In this document: positions 2,636 through 12,227 of the stretch, in pieces
How the letters are laid out: each line of letters opens with the position of its first letter
Position numbering within the stretch: the first letter of the stretch is position 1
NCBI GenBank assembly: GCA_027014185.1
Contig: JALWEK010000098.1
Location: 1 to 12,227, forward strand
DNA length: 12,227 bases
Direction: 5' to 3'
Source of the DNA: Aquificaceae bacterium
GTDB taxonomy: Bacteria; Aquificota; Aquificia; Aquificales; Aquificaceae
Notes under the pieces: model-generated
Seen by the model: only the letters and a program-made list of their open reading frames with translations
What the model was told of the DNA's origin: nothing
Databases searched by the model: none
Position numbers and translations under genes: made by a program

Positions 2636-3965
2636 GCTTTTAGAGGACCTCACGCCCAAGCGTATAGTTGAGGAGCTTAACAAGTACGTTGTGGGCCAGG
2701 ATGAGGCCAAGAAGGCGGTCGCGATAGCCTTGAGGAACAGATGGAGGAGGCAGAGGCTCCCCGATTACATAAGGGACGAGGTTGCTCCCAAGAACATCCT
2801 CATGATAGGACCCACGGGGGTGGGTAAGACGGAGATAGCCAGGAGGCTCGCGGGCCTGATAAAGGCACCCTTCGTAAAGGTTGAGGCTACCAAGTACACC
2901 GAGGTCGGGTACGTTGGTAGGGACGTTGAGTCCATGGTGAGGGAGCTCGCGGAGGTCTCCTACCAGATGGTTAAGAGGGAGAAGGTTGAGAAGGTTAGGG
3001 AGAGGGCCAGGAGGCTTGCCGAAGAGAGGATACTCGACTACCTGACGCCCCAGCAGTTCACCAGCTTCGGTATAAGGGAGGCCCAGGACTCGGGCAAGAG
3101 AGAGGAGCTCAGAGAGAAGCTCAGAAAGGGAGAGCTGGACGAGAAGGTCATAGAGATAGACGTTCAGGAGAAGGCCGTTCCCATGATAGGGATCGCAGGG
3201 CCTCCTGGGCTCGAGGAGCTGGAGAACCAGCTGAGGGAGATGTTCTCCAACCTCATGCCCTCCAAGAAGAGGAGAAAGTTGAGGGTGAAAGAAGCCCTCC
3301 ACATACTCGAGCAGGAGGAGGCTGAGAAACTCATCGACATGGAGGAGGTCGCCAGGGAGGCGATCTTCAGGGCCGAGAACTTCGGGATAATCTTCATAGA
3401 TGAGATAGACAAGATAGCGGTCAAGACCCCCGGACACGGTCCTGGTGTGTCGAGAGAGGGCGTTCAGAGGGATCTTCTCCCTATCCTCGAGGGAACTACC
3501 GTGAACACCAAGTACGGTCCGGTGAAAACGGACCACATCCTATTCATAGGGGCGGGGGCCTTCCACATGGCCAAGCCCTCGGACCTGATACCCGAGCTAC
3601 AGGGGAGGTTCCCCATAAGGGTAGAGCTAAAGCCCTTAACCAAGGACGACTTCGTCAAGATACTCACCGAGCCCGAGAACGCCCTTACCAAGCAGTACGT
3701 AGAACTCCTCAAAACGGAGGGTGTGGAGATAGAGTTCACCGAGGATGCGGTGGAGGAGATAGCGAGGATCTCGGAAGAGATAAACAACAGGACCGAGAAC
3801 ATAGGTGCGAGGAGGCTTCACACCGTGATGGAGAGGCTCCTCGAAGACATCTCCTTCAACGCTCCGGACATGAGCGGCCAGTACATAATAATAGACAGCA
3901 AGTTCGTAAAGGCTAAACTGGAGAACATAGTAGAGGACGAGGAGCTAAGTAGGTATATCCTTTAA
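2616..3965 (+). CDS. hslU: HslU, ATPase/unfoldase of the HslUV protease
   Basis: HslU is an AAA+ hexamer that unfolds substrates and feeds them into the HslV peptidase. The 449 residues carry the family features in order. Walker A GPTGVGKT is at 65-72, and the substrate-gripping pore loop GYVG at 98-101. The charged helical I domain runs over about 112-240. Walker B IIFIDEID is at 258-265, and the conserved ELQGRFPIR segment at 327-335, with R331 a likely arginine finger. The sensor-2 region [10 protein letters not shown] is at 397-406. The C-terminus LSRYIL matches the tail that docks into HslV, implying an HslV partner encoded elsewhere. A GAGAGG sequence (2602-2607) precedes the ATG. The 3' end overlaps the convergent otsA gene by 21 bases. 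Confidence 0.96.
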
Positions 3966-5318
3966 GAACTCTTCTATCCACCAGTGGACGTCCTTCTCCG
4001 TAACTATGCTCTTTAGAGATCTCATCCTCTCCCTCTTCTCTCTCTTCTTCATCTTTAGGGCCATGTATATGGCCTCCGCTACCTGATCCTCGTCGAAGGG
4101 GTTCACTATCAGGGCACCCTCCCTGAGCTGGACGCTGACCCCAGCGAACTCGCTCAGTATTAGAACCCCATCCTCGTCCGTCCTGGAAGCCACGTACTCC
4201 TTGGCAACTAGGTTCAGACCGTCTATAACAGGTGTTATGAGGGCGAAGTTGGACACCATGTAGAGGGATGCGAGCCTCTCGTCCCCGTAGTTTTTGTAGT
4301 AGTAGTATATAGGAACCCAGCCTGGTTCTCCGAACCTGCCCTCCACCCTTCCTACTATCTCGTCCGTCTTCCTCTTTATATCCATGTAGTCCTCTAGCTT
4401 CGTCCTCGTCGGAGCGGCTATCTGTATAAACGAGACCTTTCCCCTAAAGGAAGGGTACTTCTCGAAGAACCTCTCGAGGCCCTTAAACTTCTCCTCCAGG
4501 CCCTTCGTGTAGTCGAGCCTGTCTACCCCTATGCCAACGTAATCCACGCCCAGCTTCTTCCTGAGGTTCTTCGCGTACCTTACCACCTTCGGGTTCGACC
4601 TCAGCCTCTCCCATCTCTCCACGTCTATCCCGACCGGAACGGCCCTTACCTCTATCCTCCTTCCGTTCCAGTAAACGGTGTTCCCGTCCGGGAAGGCTCC
4701 GAGGATCTCCCTAACGCACTCCAGAAAGTTGTTGACGTAGTACTGGGTATGAAAGCCGATCACATCCGCTCCCAACATCCCCTCGAGGATCTCCCTCCTC
4801 TGGGGCAGGAACCTGAGCATGAAGTAGGGGGGGAACGGTATGTGCCAGAAGAAGTATATGGGATCGTCTAGCCCCTCGTCCTTGAGGAGCTTGGGCACGA
4901 GGGCCAGGTGGTAATCGTTGACGACGATCTTGGTCCCTCCCTGGTAAACCTCCTTGACCGCCCTAGCGAACTTTCTGTTTACCCTCCTGTAACCGAGCCA
5001 GTAGCTGTCGTCGAAGTGGGTTCTGTTTAGAAACATGTGGCTAAGTGGCCATAGGGTCTCGTTGGAGAACCCGTAGTAGTACTCCGATACGTCCGCGCTG
5101 GTGAGGGGAACCTGCTTCATCAGGAACTTTTCGTTTATCCACACCTCCAGGGGTGTCTTCTGACCCCTCCTGCCCCAACAGATCCATATCCCTCCGTTCT
5201 TCCTCAGGATAGGCTCCAGCGCAGAGACTAGACCTCCTACCGTCTTCTCGAAGCTCGCCTTCCCCCGCCTGGGCTCCACCCTGTAAGGTTCTCTGTTGGA
5301 TACAACTATGAGTTTCAT
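3945..5318 (-). CDS. otsA: Trehalose-6-phosphate synthase (GT20)
   Basis: OtsA joins glucose from a nucleotide sugar to glucose-6-phosphate, giving trehalose-6-phosphate. The 457 residues show GT20 landmarks: VVSNR (5-9), VGGL (27-30), FSNETLWP (84-91), NDYHL (134-138), HIPFP (159-163), GADVIGFHT (183-191), donor-site VDRLDYTKG (265-273) and DGLNLVAKE (366-374). Positions equivalent to the E. coli acceptor-site residues Arg9, Tyr76, Trp85 and Arg300 (from memory) appear kept as R9, Y81, W90 and R305. That favours glucose-6-phosphate over glycerol-3-phosphate as acceptor. The start at 5316-5318 fits the family's N-terminus; a longer ORF to 5549 would run through otsB and adds no family sequence. 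No Shine-Dalgarno precedes this ATG. The 3' end overlaps hslU by 21 bases. Confidence 0.9.
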
Positions 5319-5345
5319 ATTGTTATTAAAATAACTTAATCCGGG
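5319..5345. promoter_or_regulatory. 27-bp AT-rich divergent spacer between otsA and otsB
   Basis: This spacer must hold the start signals of both divergent genes unless the promoters lie inside coding sequence. On the plus strand TAAAAT (5327-5332) would start RNA near 5339, leaving about seven bases before otsB. On the minus strand TAATAA (5324-5329) would place the start at or next to the otsA ATG. The core (TTATT...AATAA) is close to palindromic. There is no Shine-Dalgarno sequence for either gene and no clear -35, so both messages may be leaderless or nearly so. Confidence 0.3.
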
Positions 5346-6053
5346 ATGGTAATACTCTTGGACTACGATGGCACGCTTACCCCCATAGCCCCAAAACCTT
5401 CCGAGGCAAGGATAGACCCTGAAAGAAAAGAATTTCTGGAAGAGCTGTCGAGGAGGCACAAGCTCGCCATAGTTACCGGCAGGGACATGAATAGCTTCAG
5501 GGAGGTCTTCGGCGATGTCCCGGAAACCATGTACGTGGTTACATCTCACGGGGCAAAGATATACAGAGGGGAAAAGCTGATAGGTAACTTCCTGAACGGG
5601 GAGATTCCGGATTTAAGTAAGCTCAGGGAGAGGCTGAAGGATCTCGAAGGCGTTCTCCTGGAGGAGAAGGAAGGGTGTTTTGCCGTACATTACAGGGAGT
5701 ACAGGGGAGATGAGAACAAGGTTAAGAAAGTGTTCTACGAGTTTCTGAGAGAACACCCACCGAGGAAGGTGATAGAGGGGAAGAAGGTACTCGAGGCCAT
5801 ATACGGGGGCTTTGACAAGGGAACGGCGGTAGAGAACTTCCTGAGGCTGGTTGGGAGAGAACCCTATGAGGAGCTTGTGTACGTGGGAGACGACACGACG
5901 GACCTCTTTGCACTCAGGAAGGTAAGGGAGCTCGGGGGAAAGGCGGTATTCGTAGGGGAGAAAAAGCCACCGGAGGCTGACATACTCCTAAAGGACGTGG
6001 ATGAGGTTTACGAGTTCCTAGCCTCCATCGATAAGGCTGCTCACCAGAAGTAG
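5346..6053 (+). CDS. otsB: Trehalose-6-phosphate phosphatase (HAD family)
   Basis: OtsB removes the phosphate from trehalose-6-phosphate, completing the OtsA/OtsB pathway. The 235-aa protein has the HAD phosphatase motifs in order. Motif I is DYDGT (6-10), with D6 the nucleophile and D8 the acid/base. Motif II is VTGR (43-46, T44). The family's SHGA segment is at 67-70, a Lys of motif III at K158 (GFDKGT), and motif IV is GDDTTD (181-186), which binds Mg2+. Size and the small cap domain between motifs II and III fit trehalose-phosphatase. The start is fixed by motif I at residue 6 and by an in-frame TAA at 5337. No Shine-Dalgarno is present. It is divergent from otsA, and its last 36 bases overlap the convergent treT gene. 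Confidence 0.92.
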   Translation: MVILLDYDGTLTPIAPKPSEARIDPERKEFLEELSRRHKLAIVTGRDMNSFREVFGDVPETMYVVTSHGAKIYRGEKLIGNFLNGEIPDLSKLRERLKDLEGVLLEEKEGCFAVHYREYRGDENKVKKVFYEFLREHPPRKVIEGKKVLEAIYGGFDKGTAVENFLRLVGREPYEELVYVGDDTTDLFALRKVRELGGKAVFVGEKKPPEADILLKDVDEVYEFLASIDKAAHQK

Positions 6054-7223
6054 GTAGTCCTTTAGATGTCTCGTTATCAGGAAGCTGTGCTTTACCCTCT
6101 CGTGGGCGTTCCTGCCCATTTCCTCCCTCCTCTTTTCGTCGGCGAGAAGCTGCTTTATCCTGAAGGCTGTCCCCTCTATGCTGTTTATCAGGTATCCCGT
6201 TACGCCGTTTATTATCTGCCTCCTTATACCCCCTATGTTGCTTCCTATCACGGGCTTGCCCTTCCACATCGCTTCCGACACCACCAGGCCGAAACCCTCC
6301 CTTATCGACTTCTGAACCACCACGGTGGCCGCCCTCTGGAGGGCGTTTATCTCCATGTGGCTGTTCGGGGGTAGGTTGAGGACGAATACGTCGGGGTCGT
6401 CCCCCTTTACCTCGAGCACCTCTCTGTAAACCTCCTCACCTTCCGGATCGTCGCTGGCGAAAGAACCCGCAAGGACCAGCTGGCATTCGTACCTTTTCCT
6501 GACGATCCTGTAAGCCTCTATTACCCCGATGGGGTCCTTCAGCCTGTCGAAGCGGGAGACCTGAAGGACTATGGGTTTTTCCGGATCTATCCCGAACTTG
6601 TTGAGCACATGGTGAACGTAGTCCTCCTTCAGCTCCCTGTTCTTGTCGTGGAGAGGATCTATAGACGGGGGTATAACGAAGGCAGGTATCCTCACCCCCT
6701 CTCTCACGAACTCTGGTATGTGGAATATGCTCGCATCGTATCCGTTCACGAACATCTCGAGGAACTTCCATGTATCTTCATCGGGCGTAGAGACGTCTAT
6801 GTGGCATCTCCATATCCACTTCTGTCCCCTCTTCTTCTTGACTATCAACCCCAGGGGCTGGGGATCGTGTATGAAGATAACGTCGAAGGGATCGGTGTCT
6901 ATGTAGGAGACGTTCTCGTAGGTGTACTTCATGTAGGTTATAACGTCCTCGTGGTTCAGTTTCTCCTCTCCAGGCAGATGGAGGAGGTTGTGTATCTTCT
7001 TGGTAACCTTGAAGAAGTCAAGATCCCCCTTTATCACCTCCCAGCGGGTCTCTATGCCGAGCTCGTTCATAAGGGGAACCATCCTGTAGAGGATCTCGGC
7101 CACACCCCCTCCCAGCTTGGTGGAGTTCACGTGCAGAACCTTTACTCCTCTGAGCCTCTCTGCAACCTTCTGGAGCTCTAAAAGGGAGCCCTCGTCTATG
7201 AACCTTGCGTACTCTTCGAGCAT
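6018..7223 (-). CDS. treT: TreT-like trehalose-forming glycosyltransferase (GT4)
   Basis: TreT enzymes make trehalose in one reversible step from a nucleoside-diphosphate glucose and glucose, as described in hyperthermophiles such as Thermococcus and Pyrococcus. The 401-aa protein has the family's N-terminal HVNSTKLGGGVAEIL (31-45). Next come HDPQPLG (119-125) and the donor-phosphate motif SRFDRLKDP (223-231). The GT4 EX7E motif is EGFGLVVSE (309-317), followed by the NIGGIRRQI segment (329-337). The length suits TreT. The ATG (7221-7223) follows the stop codon of the upstream 204-aa gene after one base (TGAtATG), and GGAG in that gene's last codons serves as ribosome-binding site, so the two are coupled. 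A related disaccharide-forming GT4 activity, such as trehalose phosphorylase, cannot be excluded. Confidence 0.82.
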   Translation of the reverse strand: MLEEYARFIDEGSLLELQKVAERLRGVKVLHVNSTKLGGGVAEILYRMVPLMNELGIETRWEVIKGDLDFFKVTKKIHNLLHLPGEEKLNHEDVITYMKYTYENVSYIDTDPFDVIFIHDPQPLGLIVKKKRGQKWIWRCHIDVSTPDEDTWKFLEMFVNGYDASIFHIPEFVREGVRIPAFVIPPSIDPLHDKNRELKEDYVHHVLNKFGIDPEKPIVLQVSRFDRLKDPIGVIEAYRIVRKRYECQLVLAGSFASDDPEGEEVYREVLEVKGDDPDVFVLNLPPNSHMEINALQRAATVVVQKSIREGFGLVVSEAMWKGKPVIGSNIGGIRRQIINGVTGYLINSIEGTAFRIKQLLADEKRREEMGRNAHERVKHSFLITRHLKDYLLLVSSLIDGG

Positions 7224-7224
7224 A

Positions 7225-7839
7225 TCAACTCTCCGAAAGGATCTTCAGTATCCTGTTCCTGACCTCGTACAGGCTGTAGGCCATGAGGTCTAGCTTGTCT
7301 ATCTCCTCCGCCTTCTCCTCCTCCCCTATCTCCCTCAGCCATCTGGAGAAATCGTTCGTTGGTTCGCCGTGGTAGAGCCTCGAGGTGACCAGATGGTAGA
7401 AGAGGGAGTGTATCCCGACCTTTCCTACCCCTTCCCTGAACTCCTCCAGGTTCCTCGCCCTTATCCCGAGGTCGATGGTTCTCCTTACCGCCCTTATGAA
7501 GTAGAAGGGCTTGCATATCTTCTCTATTCCGTCTATGTCGGAACGGAGTATATCGAGCATCCTCTCCCTCATGTCGGCTATGCAGACGCACTCCAAGAGA
7601 TCAAGGGCGGAGAACTTCTCCGCTAAGACGGAGAAGCCGTTCTCGGCGAGCCAGTATGCGAAGCTGTTTCCGTAGTCTGTGGGCAGAAAGTGGTACTCAA
7701 AGAGGTTCCTGTAAAGGTGGTAGTAGATGGTGTCATCGTCCACCTCCTTGAGGGCCCTCGCAAAGGAGGCCAGGGTGTTGGCCTTTATCCCCGTGTACTG
7801 GGCTGTCCAGAGCTCGGACCTGAAGGCGAACTCGGTCAT
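7225..7839 (-). CDS. Two-repeat protein of unknown function coupled to treT (possibly DUF5752)
   Basis: The function is unknown. The 204-aa protein is soluble-looking and made of two diverged copies of a roughly 90-residue unit (about 5-98 and 112-201). Matching positions are YYHL (39-42)/FYHL (147-150), NSFAYWL (58-64)/NDFSRWL (162-168), LDLLE (79-83)/LDLMA (183-187) and RERMLDIL (91-98)/RNRILKIL (194-201). The two copies share a regular helical pattern and no obvious catalytic motif. I recall DUF5752-type proteins beside thermophile treT genes, but that is memory and not checked. It lies directly upstream of treT with one base between them, so a role in controlling or assisting TreT is a reasonable inference. 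The ATG has no Shine-Dalgarno sequence; the upstream bases are AT-rich. Confidence 0.85.
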   Translation of the reverse strand: MTEFAFRSELWTAQYTGIKANTLASFARALKEVDDDTIYYHLYRNLFEYHFLPTDYGNSFAYWLAENGFSVLAEKFSALDLLECVCIADMRERMLDILRSDIDGIEKICKPFYFIRAVRRTIDLGIRARNLEEFREGVGKVGIHSLFYHLVTSRLYHGEPTNDFSRWLREIGEEEKAEEIDKLDLMAYSLYEVRNRILKILSES

Positions 7840-9000: not shown

Positions 9001-10188
9001 ATGATTAAAAGGGTTCTCTTTAAAGATCTCGATATAAATGTAATAAACCTGGGGAACATATTCGACGAGGCGAGGAAAAGAGGTCTCACGGGCTTCTTCA
9101 GGGCTACCTACTGGAACAGGGACGACTACCTCCTCTTTGTGGATGGGGCTCCTTTTAAGCTTGTGAGCATCTACTCGGACGGCAGGAGGATCGTCGGTGC
9201 TCTGGAGAACTTCAAGCTCGAGGAGAGGGAGGGAACGGGGACCTTTGCGGAATGCACCCTGGACGATCTCGTAGGTTTTCAGGAGTACCATCACGATCCG
9301 GGAAGATCCGGAGCCCTCTTCTTCTTTCCCTTCGGTACCGTGGTCCAGGAGACCACACCCCTTAGCTTTCTGGACCTAGATAAGGAGTTCCTCCTGGCCC
9401 AGAAGAGTCATCTGAGCGGTTACATGGCTCTGTACACCCAGGAGAGACTTCTGGGCATGGTGATATTTCAGGAAGGGGTGCCAGTTGCCGTGTTCGGCGG
9501 TGATAACTCCTTCGCCTCACAGGCGGTGGATTACATCAACGCTAACCTCGTGCCTGCCAAGAGCTTCATGTCCATGTACACCCTAGAGTACGAGATCCTC
9601 AGCTTCATGTACTCCATGCACTCGGACAATGTTCACTCGGTGGACTCGAAGTTCATGACCTACACGGAGGCTAAGGATTTCGTAGAGCAGGGCAAGAGGA
9701 ACGCCATCATCCTTATCGAGGGCGGAGGAATACACAGGTACGACCTCTTCTTCAGAGGCCAGCAGGTGGACAGGCTCGTGAAGGAGAAGGGCCTCTTCGT
9801 TACGGACGAGGAGCCCGCCGGTAGGCTCTCCGTTAAGGCGGAGAACATGCCCGACAGGAGTATATGGGTTTACGAGGTTTCCATAATAGAGAAACCCCTC
9901 CCGATAGAGGTGAGCATAGAGGTAACCTCGGAGGAAGCCACCGTAGTCGAGAGCGAGATTCCCGTGGACAAGGTGGGAGAGGTGAGATCCCTCTTCATAA
10001 AAGAGATAGGCCCGGTGGGGAAGCTGATATGGGAAAAAACCCTCGACGAGCTCAGGTTCAAGGAAAACGCCATGAGCCTCAATCAGGTGAGGATACTGAT
10101 AGAAAGGCTCAAGAAGGAGTTTCCCGAGGAAGAGCTTGCAAAGGAGTTTCTGCGAAAAATCAAGGAAGTTCTGCCCGATATAATGTAG
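9001..10188 (+). CDS. 395-aa repeat protein of unknown function in an MglAB gene set
   Basis: I do not recognise a named family with confidence. The protein looks cytoplasmic, with no signal peptide or membrane segment. It appears to contain related beta-rich units: one at about 27-64 (GLTGFFRATY, then YLLFVDGAPFKLV) and one at about 136-168 (LSGYMALYTQ, then MVIFQEGVPVAVF). A weaker third lies at about 231-260 (AIILIEGGGIHRYDLFFRGQQ). The pattern L-[ST]-G-aromatic followed by a hydrophobic strand and F-x-[DE]-G-x-P recalls DUF4388/PATAN-type modules, which occur with polarity and signalling proteins; this is a resemblance, not an assignment. The C-terminus (about 330-395) is helical and begins FIKEIGPVGKLIWEK. 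The gene starts 32 bases after nth and is followed closely by the HAMP receptor and mglBA, suggesting a shared pathway. Confidence 0.85.
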   Translation: MIKRVLFKDLDINVINLGNIFDEARKRGLTGFFRATYWNRDDYLLFVDGAPFKLVSIYSDGRRIVGALENFKLEEREGTGTFAECTLDDLVGFQEYHHDPGRSGALFFFPFGTVVQETTPLSFLDLDKEFLLAQKSHLSGYMALYTQERLLGMVIFQEGVPVAVFGGDNSFASQAVDYINANLVPAKSFMSMYTLEYEILSFMYSMHSDNVHSVDSKFMTYTEAKDFVEQGKRNAIILIEGGGIHRYDLFFRGQQVDRLVKEKGLFVTDEEPAGRLSVKAENMPDRSIWVYEVSIIEKPLPIEVSIEVTSEEATVVESEIPVDKVGEVRSLFIKEIGPVGKLIWEKTLDELRFKENAMSLNQVRILIERLKKEFPEEELAKEFLRKIKEVLPDIM

Positions 10189-10200
10189 AGGAGGTCGCCG

Positions 10201-11316
10201 ATGGTAGGTAGGTACTTCAAGAACGCGTCCCTCATAGAGAAGTTCGTCATTCCGAACGTCATCATACTCGCCGTGCTTATAGTTTCCATAGGAGCGATAA
10301 GCTACGTTCTCCTCCAGCAGCAGTTGAAGAAACAGGCCCAGGACACACTCAACAACGGCTACAAACTCTTCAGGCAGCTGGTGAACGACAGGGAGAGCTC
10401 GGGTCTCGCGGTCGCTTACCTGGTCAGTCAGGATCCAGACGTGAAGAAGGCCTTGGCCAAGAAGGACAGAAAGCTCCTCTACAAGTACGTTAAGGTCAGA
10501 GCGGATCTGGAGATGCTTACCGGTATATACGACCTCAGGCTCCACTTCCTCACGCCCCTCGCCGTCTCCTTCTTCAGAACCTGGAACCCCGAGAGGTACG
10601 GCATAGACGTATCCAAGTTCAGGAGGATAATAGTCACGGTCGCCCAGAGGAGAACACCCCAGAGGGGTATAGAGGTGGGGCTAAAGAGAACCATAGTTAC
10701 CGGGGCTTACCCGGTTCTAGAGGGTACAGAGTACCTCGGGGCTGTGGAGCTTATTACCCCTTTCAACCCTATCCTTGATCAGCTGAAGGAGCTGACCGGA
10801 ATGGACAGCGTGGTACTCATAAGCCGTAGGGCGGCCACCCACGCCGAGTGGGCAACGAAGGCAGAGAAGGTAGGGAACTTTCTACTCTACTACGAGACGA
10901 ACCCCGTTCTGAGAAATCTCATGCTCCAGGCGAAGGACAAACCGGATACCGTCTTCGTTGTTCAGAACTACGCCGTTATAGCTAAGCCCATATTCGACTT
11001 CTCCAAAAGGAACATAGGTTATCTGATACTGGGTTACGACCTCACTCCCATAATTGACTCCTACAAGGAGCTCGGTATCTACATACTCATGTTCGTCTTC
11101 GTGGGTCTCGTTGTCAGCTTCTTCGTTTCGTACATGATATTCAAGAAGTACGTGGAGGAGCCGATAAACACGCTGATAGAACACACAGAGAGGATAAGTA
11201 TGGGGGACGTGGATCAGAAGATCCCGATCCAGTCGAGGGACGAGATAGGCAGACTTGCGGAAGCCTTCGACAGGATGAGGGTCAGCATAAAGAAGGTTAT
11301 GGACCTCCTCAAGTGA
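10201..11316 (+). CDS. Membrane receptor: Cache-type sensor plus HAMP, no output domain
   Basis: This is a 371-aa single-chain receptor. Its order is: short cytoplasmic N-terminus; TM1 about 16-38; extracytoplasmic sensor about 39-288; TM2 about 292-315; HAMP about 316-369. The sensor includes LRLHFLTPLAVSFFRTWNP (112-130), RRTPQRGIEVG (150-160) and EYLGAVEL (177-184). That pattern resembles double-Cache (dCache_3-like) ligand-binding domains of chemoreceptors and sensor kinases. HAMP is complete, with Pro321 and DEIG (347-350). The protein stops just after HAMP, with no methyl-accepting, kinase or cyclase domain, and the stop is not obviously a lesion. GAGGAGGT (10188-10195) gives a strong ribosome-binding site, and only 12 bases separate it from the preceding gene. 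It may signal through neighbouring MglA/MglB or the 395-aa protein. Confidence 0.88.
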   Translation: MVGRYFKNASLIEKFVIPNVIILAVLIVSIGAISYVLLQQQLKKQAQDTLNNGYKLFRQLVNDRESSGLAVAYLVSQDPDVKKALAKKDRKLLYKYVKVRADLEMLTGIYDLRLHFLTPLAVSFFRTWNPERYGIDVSKFRRIIVTVAQRRTPQRGIEVGLKRTIVTGAYPVLEGTEYLGAVELITPFNPILDQLKELTGMDSVVLISRRAATHAEWATKAEKVGNFLLYYETNPVLRNLMLQAKDKPDTVFVVQNYAVIAKPIFDFSKRNIGYLILGYDLTPIIDSYKELGIYILMFVFVGLVVSFFVSYMIFKKYVEEPINTLIEHTERISMGDVDQKIPIQSRDEIGRLAEAFDRMRVSIKKVMDLLK

Positions 11317-11319
11317 GGC

Positions 11320-11347
11320 TTGATGATGTTGGGGACGGGTGTATCAT
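11320..11347 (+). promoter_or_regulatory. Possible promoter of mglB-mglA
   Basis: TTGATG (11320-11325) and TATCAT (11342-11347) are 16 bases apart; four and five bases match the sigma70 hexamers. Transcription would start near 11354, inside the long AGGAGGAGG stretch, leaving a leader of about 13 bases that still carries a ribosome-binding site. This would explain the 50-base gap after the receptor gene, larger than the others in this set. Confidence 0.35.
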
Positions 11348-11366
11348 TTATTAGGAGGAGGGAAGT

Positions 11367-11858
11367 ATGGAGCTTGACGTAGTTCAATACGAGATAGATG
11401 AGGAGGTTGAGAGGGAGCTCGTGAACGCCTTAAAAAATTTCGTCGCAAGAACCGATGCAGATCTCGTTCTCCTCTCGGACGATGCGGGGAGAATAATATC
11501 CTTTTACGGAAAAAACCTGGATGAGACCCAGGCAGAGTTTCTGGCCAGCATTATAAGCGGTATATTCGGGGCCGCCTTCGAGATGGCCAAGATGGTCTCT
11601 CAGGAAGATCTCCTGGACGCCATACAGTACGAGAGCAAGAAGCAGAACGTTGTGGTGAAGGCGGTCGGTGATAGATTTCTCGTGGGCGTTCTGTGTCCTA
11701 AGAGCGTCGCCCTCGGGACTGTCAGGCTCTTCCTTAAAGAGTTATCTGAGGATTTAAATAAGATATTCGCTTCGGTAAAACCGAAGCCTTCTAAGTTGCT
11801 GAAGCTCTCCCCCGAAGCTGTCGAAGAGAAGCTCAACAAGATACTGGGGGCGACATGA
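11367..11858 (+). CDS. mglB: MglB-like Roadblock/LC7 protein (likely GTPase regulator)
   Basis: MglB is the Roadblock/LC7 partner that stimulates GTP hydrolysis by the small GTPase MglA and marks a cell pole in Myxococcus. The 163-aa protein has the Roadblock pattern: an N-terminal helix (about 10-28), then DADLVLLSDDAGRIISFYG (30-48). A long helix follows, FLASIISGIFGAAFEMAKM (58-76), then the strand VVVKAVGDRFLVGVLCP (95-111) and a last helix (about 114-134). A Pro/Lys linker and a helical tail (about 139-163) extend past the core. A long AGGAGGAGG (11353-11361) precedes the ATG. It overlaps mglA by four bases (ATGA), so the two are coupled. The assignment rests on fold pattern plus the adjacent GTPase; the GTPase-activating role is inferred. 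Confidence 0.87.
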   Translation: MELDVVQYEIDEEVERELVNALKNFVARTDADLVLLSDDAGRIISFYGKNLDETQAEFLASIISGIFGAAFEMAKMVSQEDLLDAIQYESKKQNVVVKAVGDRFLVGVLCPKSVALGTVRLFLKELSEDLNKIFASVKPKPSKLLKLSPEAVEEKLNKILGAT

Positions 11859-12227
11859 AGCTAAAGGTAGTTTACTTCGGAGCATCGCTGGCGGGGAAGA
11901 GCACCAACGTAAAGGTTCTCTATGACATCCTCAAGGAGAAGGGGATCACCAAAGGTGACTACATATCTATGGAAACGGACGAGAACAGGACTCTCTTCGT
12001 TGAGATGTTCCTCAGCTCTATAAACCTTGAGGGGCAGGACATAGACATAAAAGTTCTCACCACGCCGGGGCAGTTCAGATTGCACCCCCTCAGAAAGGTG
12101 ATAATGAAAGGGGTTGATGGTCTGGTTTTCGTCGTGGACAGTTCCAGAGAGAGGGAGAACATAAACTTCCTCGTTCTGAGGGAGACCGCAGCGGTTTTGA
12201 AGGAGCAGGGTTTTGACCTGTACTCCC
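11855..12227 (+). CDS. mglA: MglA-like small GTPase (C-terminal part missing at window edge)
   Basis: MglA is a Ras-like GTPase that switches cell polarity and motility in Myxococcus and occurs widely with MglB. The 124 residues visible have P-loop GASLAGKST (9-17), the family's switch-I-like METDENRTLF (39-48), and TPGQF (69-73) where classical Ras proteins have DxxG. The lost Asp is also typical of MglA. The strand GVDGLVFVVDSS (85-96) follows. The region with the guanine-specificity NKxD motif lies beyond the edge, so completeness cannot be judged. The ATG overlaps the mglB stop codon (ATGA), indicating translational coupling. No lipidation signal or membrane segment is seen at the N-terminus. 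Confidence 0.9.
   Translation, partial: MKLKVVYFGASLAGKSTNVKVLYDILKEKGITKGDYISMETDENRTLFVEMFLSSINLEGQDIDIKVLTTPGQFRLHPLRKVIMKGVDGLVFVVDSSRERENINFLVLRETAAVLKEQGFDLYS

Follow-up and report, generated by a model that had tools for sequence, protein, structure and literature searches.

In 2006, Hulko et al. reportedly worked out the structure of the HAMP domain, the first of its kind, in Af1503 of Archaeoglobus fulgidus. HAMP is the only cytosolic part of this receptor, which has no recognisable effector, and the STAC protein Af1502 is translationally coupled to it (PMC4834066). Here, we describe a comparable pair at the tail of contig C98 of a bacterium from the heat-loving family Aquificaceae, where the genes for a 395-amino acid (aa) protein, a receptor, mglB and mglA lie close-packed on the forward strand; the window that we analysed is this complete contig, 12,227 bp long, from a draft genome of 233 contigs. 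As in A. fulgidus, the receptor ends in HAMP, which has Af1503 as its best PDB match, and the gene next to it codes for a four-helix domain that has GP between its first two helices; the best PDB match of this domain is Af1502. Here, by contrast, the STAC-type domain is located C-terminally in the 395-aa protein and is encoded together with mglB and mglA. We propose, with a probability of about 0.68, a split receptor whose HAMP is read in trans by the STAC-type domain of the 395-aa protein, which would act on MglB/MglA.

The structures solved for the MglA/MglB polarity switch of Myxococcus and Thermus are matched by the window MglB and by the MglA of a relative. However, the Myxococcus network is described with the Frz chemosensory system and RomR (PMC4316618), whereas the operon here includes a membrane receptor and a STAC-type protein. 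In the same article, Wuichet and Soegaard-Andersen assign MglA groups 1 and 5 to Aquificae and report PATAN genes as sometimes adjacent (PMC4316618). The nearest known receptor-MglB-GTPase operons are the actinobacterial conservons, described as joining a membrane sensor, an MglB-type Roadblock protein, one additional protein and a Ras-like GTPase; their sensor is histidine kinase-like according to that description (PMC13343842), whereas here it lacks a kinase domain, and the additional protein belongs to the STAC type. For the SLC5/STAC histidine kinases, a cryo-electron microscopy preprint on CbrA suggests that STAC is a mechanical or allosteric coupler below the membrane domain, joining the membrane part to the downstream domains (PMC13022988). 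There, STAC follows the transporter in the same chain; here, a separate protein carries it, next to a HAMP receptor. In the literature searched, we found no mention of DUF8082, the Pfam label of the STAC-type domain, and, by term counts, no paper joining STAC or Af1502 with 'small GTPase' or 'Aquificae'.

The features of the locus, in window coordinates, are the following:

9001..10188, + strand: gene of the 395-aa adaptor protein, an open reading frame with three alpha/beta repeats, a linker and a C-terminal STAC-type domain
9961..10176, + strand: STAC-type four-helix domain of the 395-aa protein, aa 321-392 (Pfam DUF8082, a precomputed label)
10201..11316, + strand: receptor of 371 aa, dCache_3 sensor plus HAMP, without an output domain (Pfam)
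11161..11292, + strand: HAMP domain of the receptor, aa 321-364 (best PDB matches, HAMP constructs of Af1503)
11272..11313, + strand: C-terminal tail of the receptor, RMRVSIKKVMDLLK, with the R-x-[SNG]-[ILMV]-[KRQ] motif common to HAMP-terminated proteins
11367..11858, + strand: mglB, 163 aa, a Roadblock/LC7 protein homologous to GTPase-activating proteins (Pfam; match to solved MglB)
11855..12227, + strand: mglA, coding for a Ras-like GTPase and truncated at the contig end (several relatives have 187 aa)

The HAMP-terminated receptor and its STAC-type neighbour

An earlier note on this DNA had described four consecutive same-strand genes with mglB and mglA overlapping, which the open reading frame coordinates and domain matches confirm: the 395-aa gene and the receptor gene are 12 bp apart, the receptor gene and mglB 50 bp, and mglB and mglA overlap by 4 bp. 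Its view of the receptor as a sensor and a HAMP with no signalling domain of its own also stands. Pfam places dCache_3 at aa 44-282 (E 3.5e-25) and HAMP at aa 321-364 (E 1e-12), and the chain stops 7 residues later, so that HAMP is the sole cytosolic part, as in an Af1503-type receptor. The Pfam search detected in it neither the MCPsignal domain of a chemoreceptor nor a kinase domain such as that of the histidine kinase-like conservon protein CvnA.

The 395-aa product, called a repeat protein in the earlier note, does show three alpha/beta units followed by a four-helix domain in its AlphaFold2 model (mean confidence score, pLDDT, 90.1). The repeats occupy aa 1-293 and a linker without predicted structure approximately aa 303-320; in the STAC-type domain, GP (aa 337-338) separates helix 1 from helix 2. 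In a profile search of PDB with this domain, which gave 12 rows up to E 10, the first match was Af1502 (5a1q, E 2.1e-4) and the next had E 0.016; Af1502 was again the top PDB match by fold comparison. The domain is a four-helix bundle with GP between its first two helices and with sequence homology to a known STAC protein. Within the STAC motif LGPx(x)A, GP is retained in 26 of 27 alignment rows, preceded by I, M or V, and at the A position the window has G, some relatives A or S; the aligned Af1502 sequence is IGPIA. The N-terminal part gave no Pfam match to DUF4388 (PATAN), and its hhalign comparison with DUF4388 proteins was not significant (probability 0.8 percent, E 0.07); true DUF4388 precedes the same C-terminal domain in the three proteins of family f5 that were checked. 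The closest named relative found of the window, a contig of an Aquificaceae bacterium, has 95 percent identity in the 395-aa protein.

The pairing of the two proteins was followed through the class. A STAC-type profile search of 136 genomes gave matches in 85 (E up to 0.01), and the fetched regions held 102 STAC-type genes once eight weak matches were left out (E 4.5e-5 to 0.0099; in G064, G122, G127, G121, G067, G060, G128 and G017). As many as 90 of the 102 directly adjoin a same-strand gene ending in HAMP, at a gap of -16 to 43 bp. Contig ends limit the view in six of the remaining 12, including one whose receptor is cut before HAMP (G011); one has a neighbouring open reading frame that stops after CxxCH (G114); in G057 the receptor is relocated, and in G021 the protein is kept without a receptor. 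This leaves three true exceptions (G072, G122 and G127). The unbiased check of the pairing is the reverse search from HAMP, made in five genomes: of 24 HAMP matches, 10 proteins end within 14 residues past HAMP, and seven of their genes are directly beside a STAC-type gene. Two more, each the second gene of a mini HAMP tandem, lie one gene away, and the last encodes the receptor that is relocated in G057. The remaining 14 HAMP proteins continue past HAMP for at least 214 residues.

The R-x-[SNG]-[ILMV]-[KRQ] tail was present in 100 of 102 HAMP-terminated proteins against none of 14 output-bearing HAMPs, in a sample drawn from the regions around STAC-type genes rather than from an unbiased count of HAMP-terminated genes; the motif was chosen after viewing the sequences and loosened from a stricter version (77/102). 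Af1503 has RRSLK at this position.

The membrane partners of the STAC-type proteins are of three kinds, namely dCache_3 receptors, Tll0287-like receptors (also in the three members of family f5 that were checked) and mini HAMP proteins of approximately 130 aa without a sensor domain. Family f2 has one mini HAMP gene per locus, where the mini HAMP and STAC-type genes are followed by Roadblock, DUF4388 and second GTPase genes (e.g., L080:6570-9536). The window's own genome has mini HAMP genes two in tandem, on contigs C228 and C232, beside STAC-type proteins of 225-230 aa (L073:4073-4868; L074, about 3284-3879); two such genes per partner suggest a heterodimer. A second GTPase system of Roadblock, DUF4388 and small GTPase genes was seen at L075:3087-4698.

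HAMP/STAC pairs also occur at loci without mglB/mglA. Since HAMP-terminated proteins adjoin a STAC-type domain even there, the 395-aa protein is the likely direct target of the receptor, through its C-terminal domain.

Association with the MglB/MglA module

The reading of the last two genes as a Roadblock/GTPase switch holds. The window mglB product matches Roadblock/LC7 above the Pfam cut-off (E 3.2e-8), the NCBIfam MglB model below its cut-off, and solved MglB with E 2.6e-10; a Roadblock/LC7 protein adjoining mglA, it is by sequence homologous to GTPase-activating proteins. The truncated window mglA scores just below the Pfam Ras cut-off, and its identity is drawn from the full-length MglA of a relative (L005), which is above that cut-off and matches solved MglA (3t12, 6hjh) with E 4.6e-37. 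The contig stops inside mglA, and the downstream genes of this organism are outside the visible sequence. The same assembly holds a second mglA 3' part (L077:2-466), 81 percent identical in DNA to the window mglA, from which the assembly seems to mix lineages. In G001 and G017, mglA is in two frames (L068:8997-9565; L130:5591-6016).

The earlier note had asked whether the genes stay adjacent in related genomes. They do within the genus, so the arrangement is not a chance one: the receptor is found in 16 of 17 genomes, and in the remaining one (G020) the contig stops beside the 395-aa gene. Among the 15 genomes showing mglB, the order 395-aa gene, receptor, mglB is seen in 13, two of them with the first gene cut by a contig end; the other two show the receptor HAMP end before mglB and then a contig end, so that none contradicts it.

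Outside the genus, however, the sensor differs. The dCache_3 receptor was not found in other genera of the family; instead, mglB-mglA is followed by a paralogue of the 395-aa protein (identical at 24 to 31 percent of residues in 14 matches of nearly full length) and then by a different HAMP-terminated receptor, REC2, at 16 loci, with that of G034 cut. This count leaves out G043 and G059, whose pieces are at contig ends and whose mglB stretch was outside the regions covered. REC2 (L055:9578-10471 and relatives) has a Tll0287-like domain in 4/4 copies checked and a CxxCH motif in 9/9 (eleven loci, two places seen twice). Of the ten other genera, eight have members with this c-heme-type Cache receptor and its paralogous STAC protein, usually located after mglA, whereas the dCache pair of the genus is before mglB. 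Both pairs are present in four genus genomes (G009, G010, G013 and G016), and seven in which the gene after mglA is visible have the dCache pair only (G012, G014, G015, G017, G018, G022 and G023). Tll0287-like domains joined to HAMP are presented in a preprint as NO-binding c-heme sensors, with Aquificota among the enriched phyla (PMC12889525). REC2 is a candidate through which nitric oxide (NO) or redox state could feed into the MglBA module of other Aquificaceae, and the sensor appears to be exchangeable between dCache_3 and c-heme-type Cache.

Of the 47 genomes that represent the rest of the family, 18 carry both this MglA and REC2, two MglA only, one REC2 only and 26 neither (Fisher's test, p 7e-10, uncorrected for kinship), with MglA counted at E at most 1e-40 and G003, which has broken mglA pieces at a contig end, counted as without. 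The three genomes with MglA or REC2 alone all have it at contig ends, and the STAC-type domain is in the same 19 genomes as REC2. Gene order and co-occurrence thus support well the link between the receptor, the 395-aa protein, MglB and MglA.

The receptor/STAC pair could instead work on its own, as a signalling or transport-sensing unit placed in one operon with mglBA solely for the sake of expression, as the pairs away from mglBA would allow. We consider this improbable, given how module and receptor co-occur in the family. Moreover, in G057 the operon is dispersed, yet mglB, mglA with the STAC protein, and REC2 are all kept, at three places, which counts toward the link of the pair to MglBA.

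Slightly less probable still is a HAMP end that binds MglB (or MglA) directly, with the 395-aa protein as a separate MglA effector. The receptor HAMP end is immediately before mglB in 15/15 genus genomes showing mglB, but in 16/16 full loci from other genera it is the STAC protein, and not mglB, that lies next to the receptor, and the HAMP/STAC pairs at loci without mglB also speak against it. The earlier note had the receptor feeding either MglB/MglA or the 395-aa protein; of these two, the 395-aa protein is the likely direct target.

CheW is present in 17/17 genus genomes. Across the family, this MglA occurs in 36 genomes; CheW was not detected in 13 of these, of which nine are 99-100 percent complete, and therefore chemosensory output is not needed. 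An output supplied by a chemotaxis or histidine kinase partner encoded elsewhere is very unlikely, its chemotaxis version being disfavoured already by these 13 genomes and by the lack of an MCP signalling domain in the receptor, although both of the two checked among four longer full-length receptor matches outside the genus (E up to 1e-20; 25 to 31 percent identity) are dCache_3-HAMP-MCPsignal chemoreceptors; stand-alone histidine kinases were not searched for.

Proposed signalling path and output

In the split receptor that we favour, a ligand at the dCache_3 sensor would move the helices of the dimeric HAMP; such movement on ligand binding is general HAMP behaviour. The exposed end of the second HAMP helix, with its R-x-S-I-K tail, would then be read in trans by the STAC-type domain, a step that we infer from adjacency, co-occurrence and the Af1503/Af1502 precedent. 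The remainder of the 395-aa protein may relay this state to MglB/MglA, shifting the GTP/GDP state or the place of MglA, with a possible output via type IV pili or surface behaviour.

More tentatively, and at somewhat less than even odds, a HAMP-only receptor with a trans STAC-type domain might represent a third general route by which prokaryotes signal across the membrane, one that in Aquificota would have a Ras-like GTPase module as effector and plug-in sensors (dCache, c-heme-type Cache, mini HAMP). If so, it would stand beside kinases and chemoreceptors, reveal the kind of output that Af1503-like receptors have and assign a function to Pfam DUF8082. If the split-receptor reading holds, bacteria can control a Ras-like switch through a membrane sensor although the operon encodes no kinase. 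Because a HAMP-only receptor, a STAC-type partner and a Ras-like GTPase are in one operon in many genomes, the partner of such a receptor can be sought by binding tests between defined proteins.

That the module acts on polarity, pili or gliding is a guess. PilT does not discriminate for a pilus output because it is present in 64/64 family genomes. In G028, a GspE/PilB-type ATPase gene comes after REC2, and relatives of this ATPase adjoin the mini HAMP/STAC locus in G000, G009, G011 and G022; such neighbours hint at pilus or secretion machinery. The ATPase genes stand beside HAMP/STAC modules in two different arrangements (L067:3897-8166; L074:4553-5962). In two genomes of genus g6 (L071:9762-13832; L140:1479-5451), mglB is divergent from genes that look, by eye, like flhA, flhF and flhG.

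Elsewhere in the window, a tRNA-Pro (ggg) is located at the contig start (74-146), and positions 3945-7839 hold a trehalose cluster of OtsA-like and OtsB-like genes, TreT and a DUF5752 gene adjoining TreT. The genes of this cluster are side by side again in relatives, with equal length and start.
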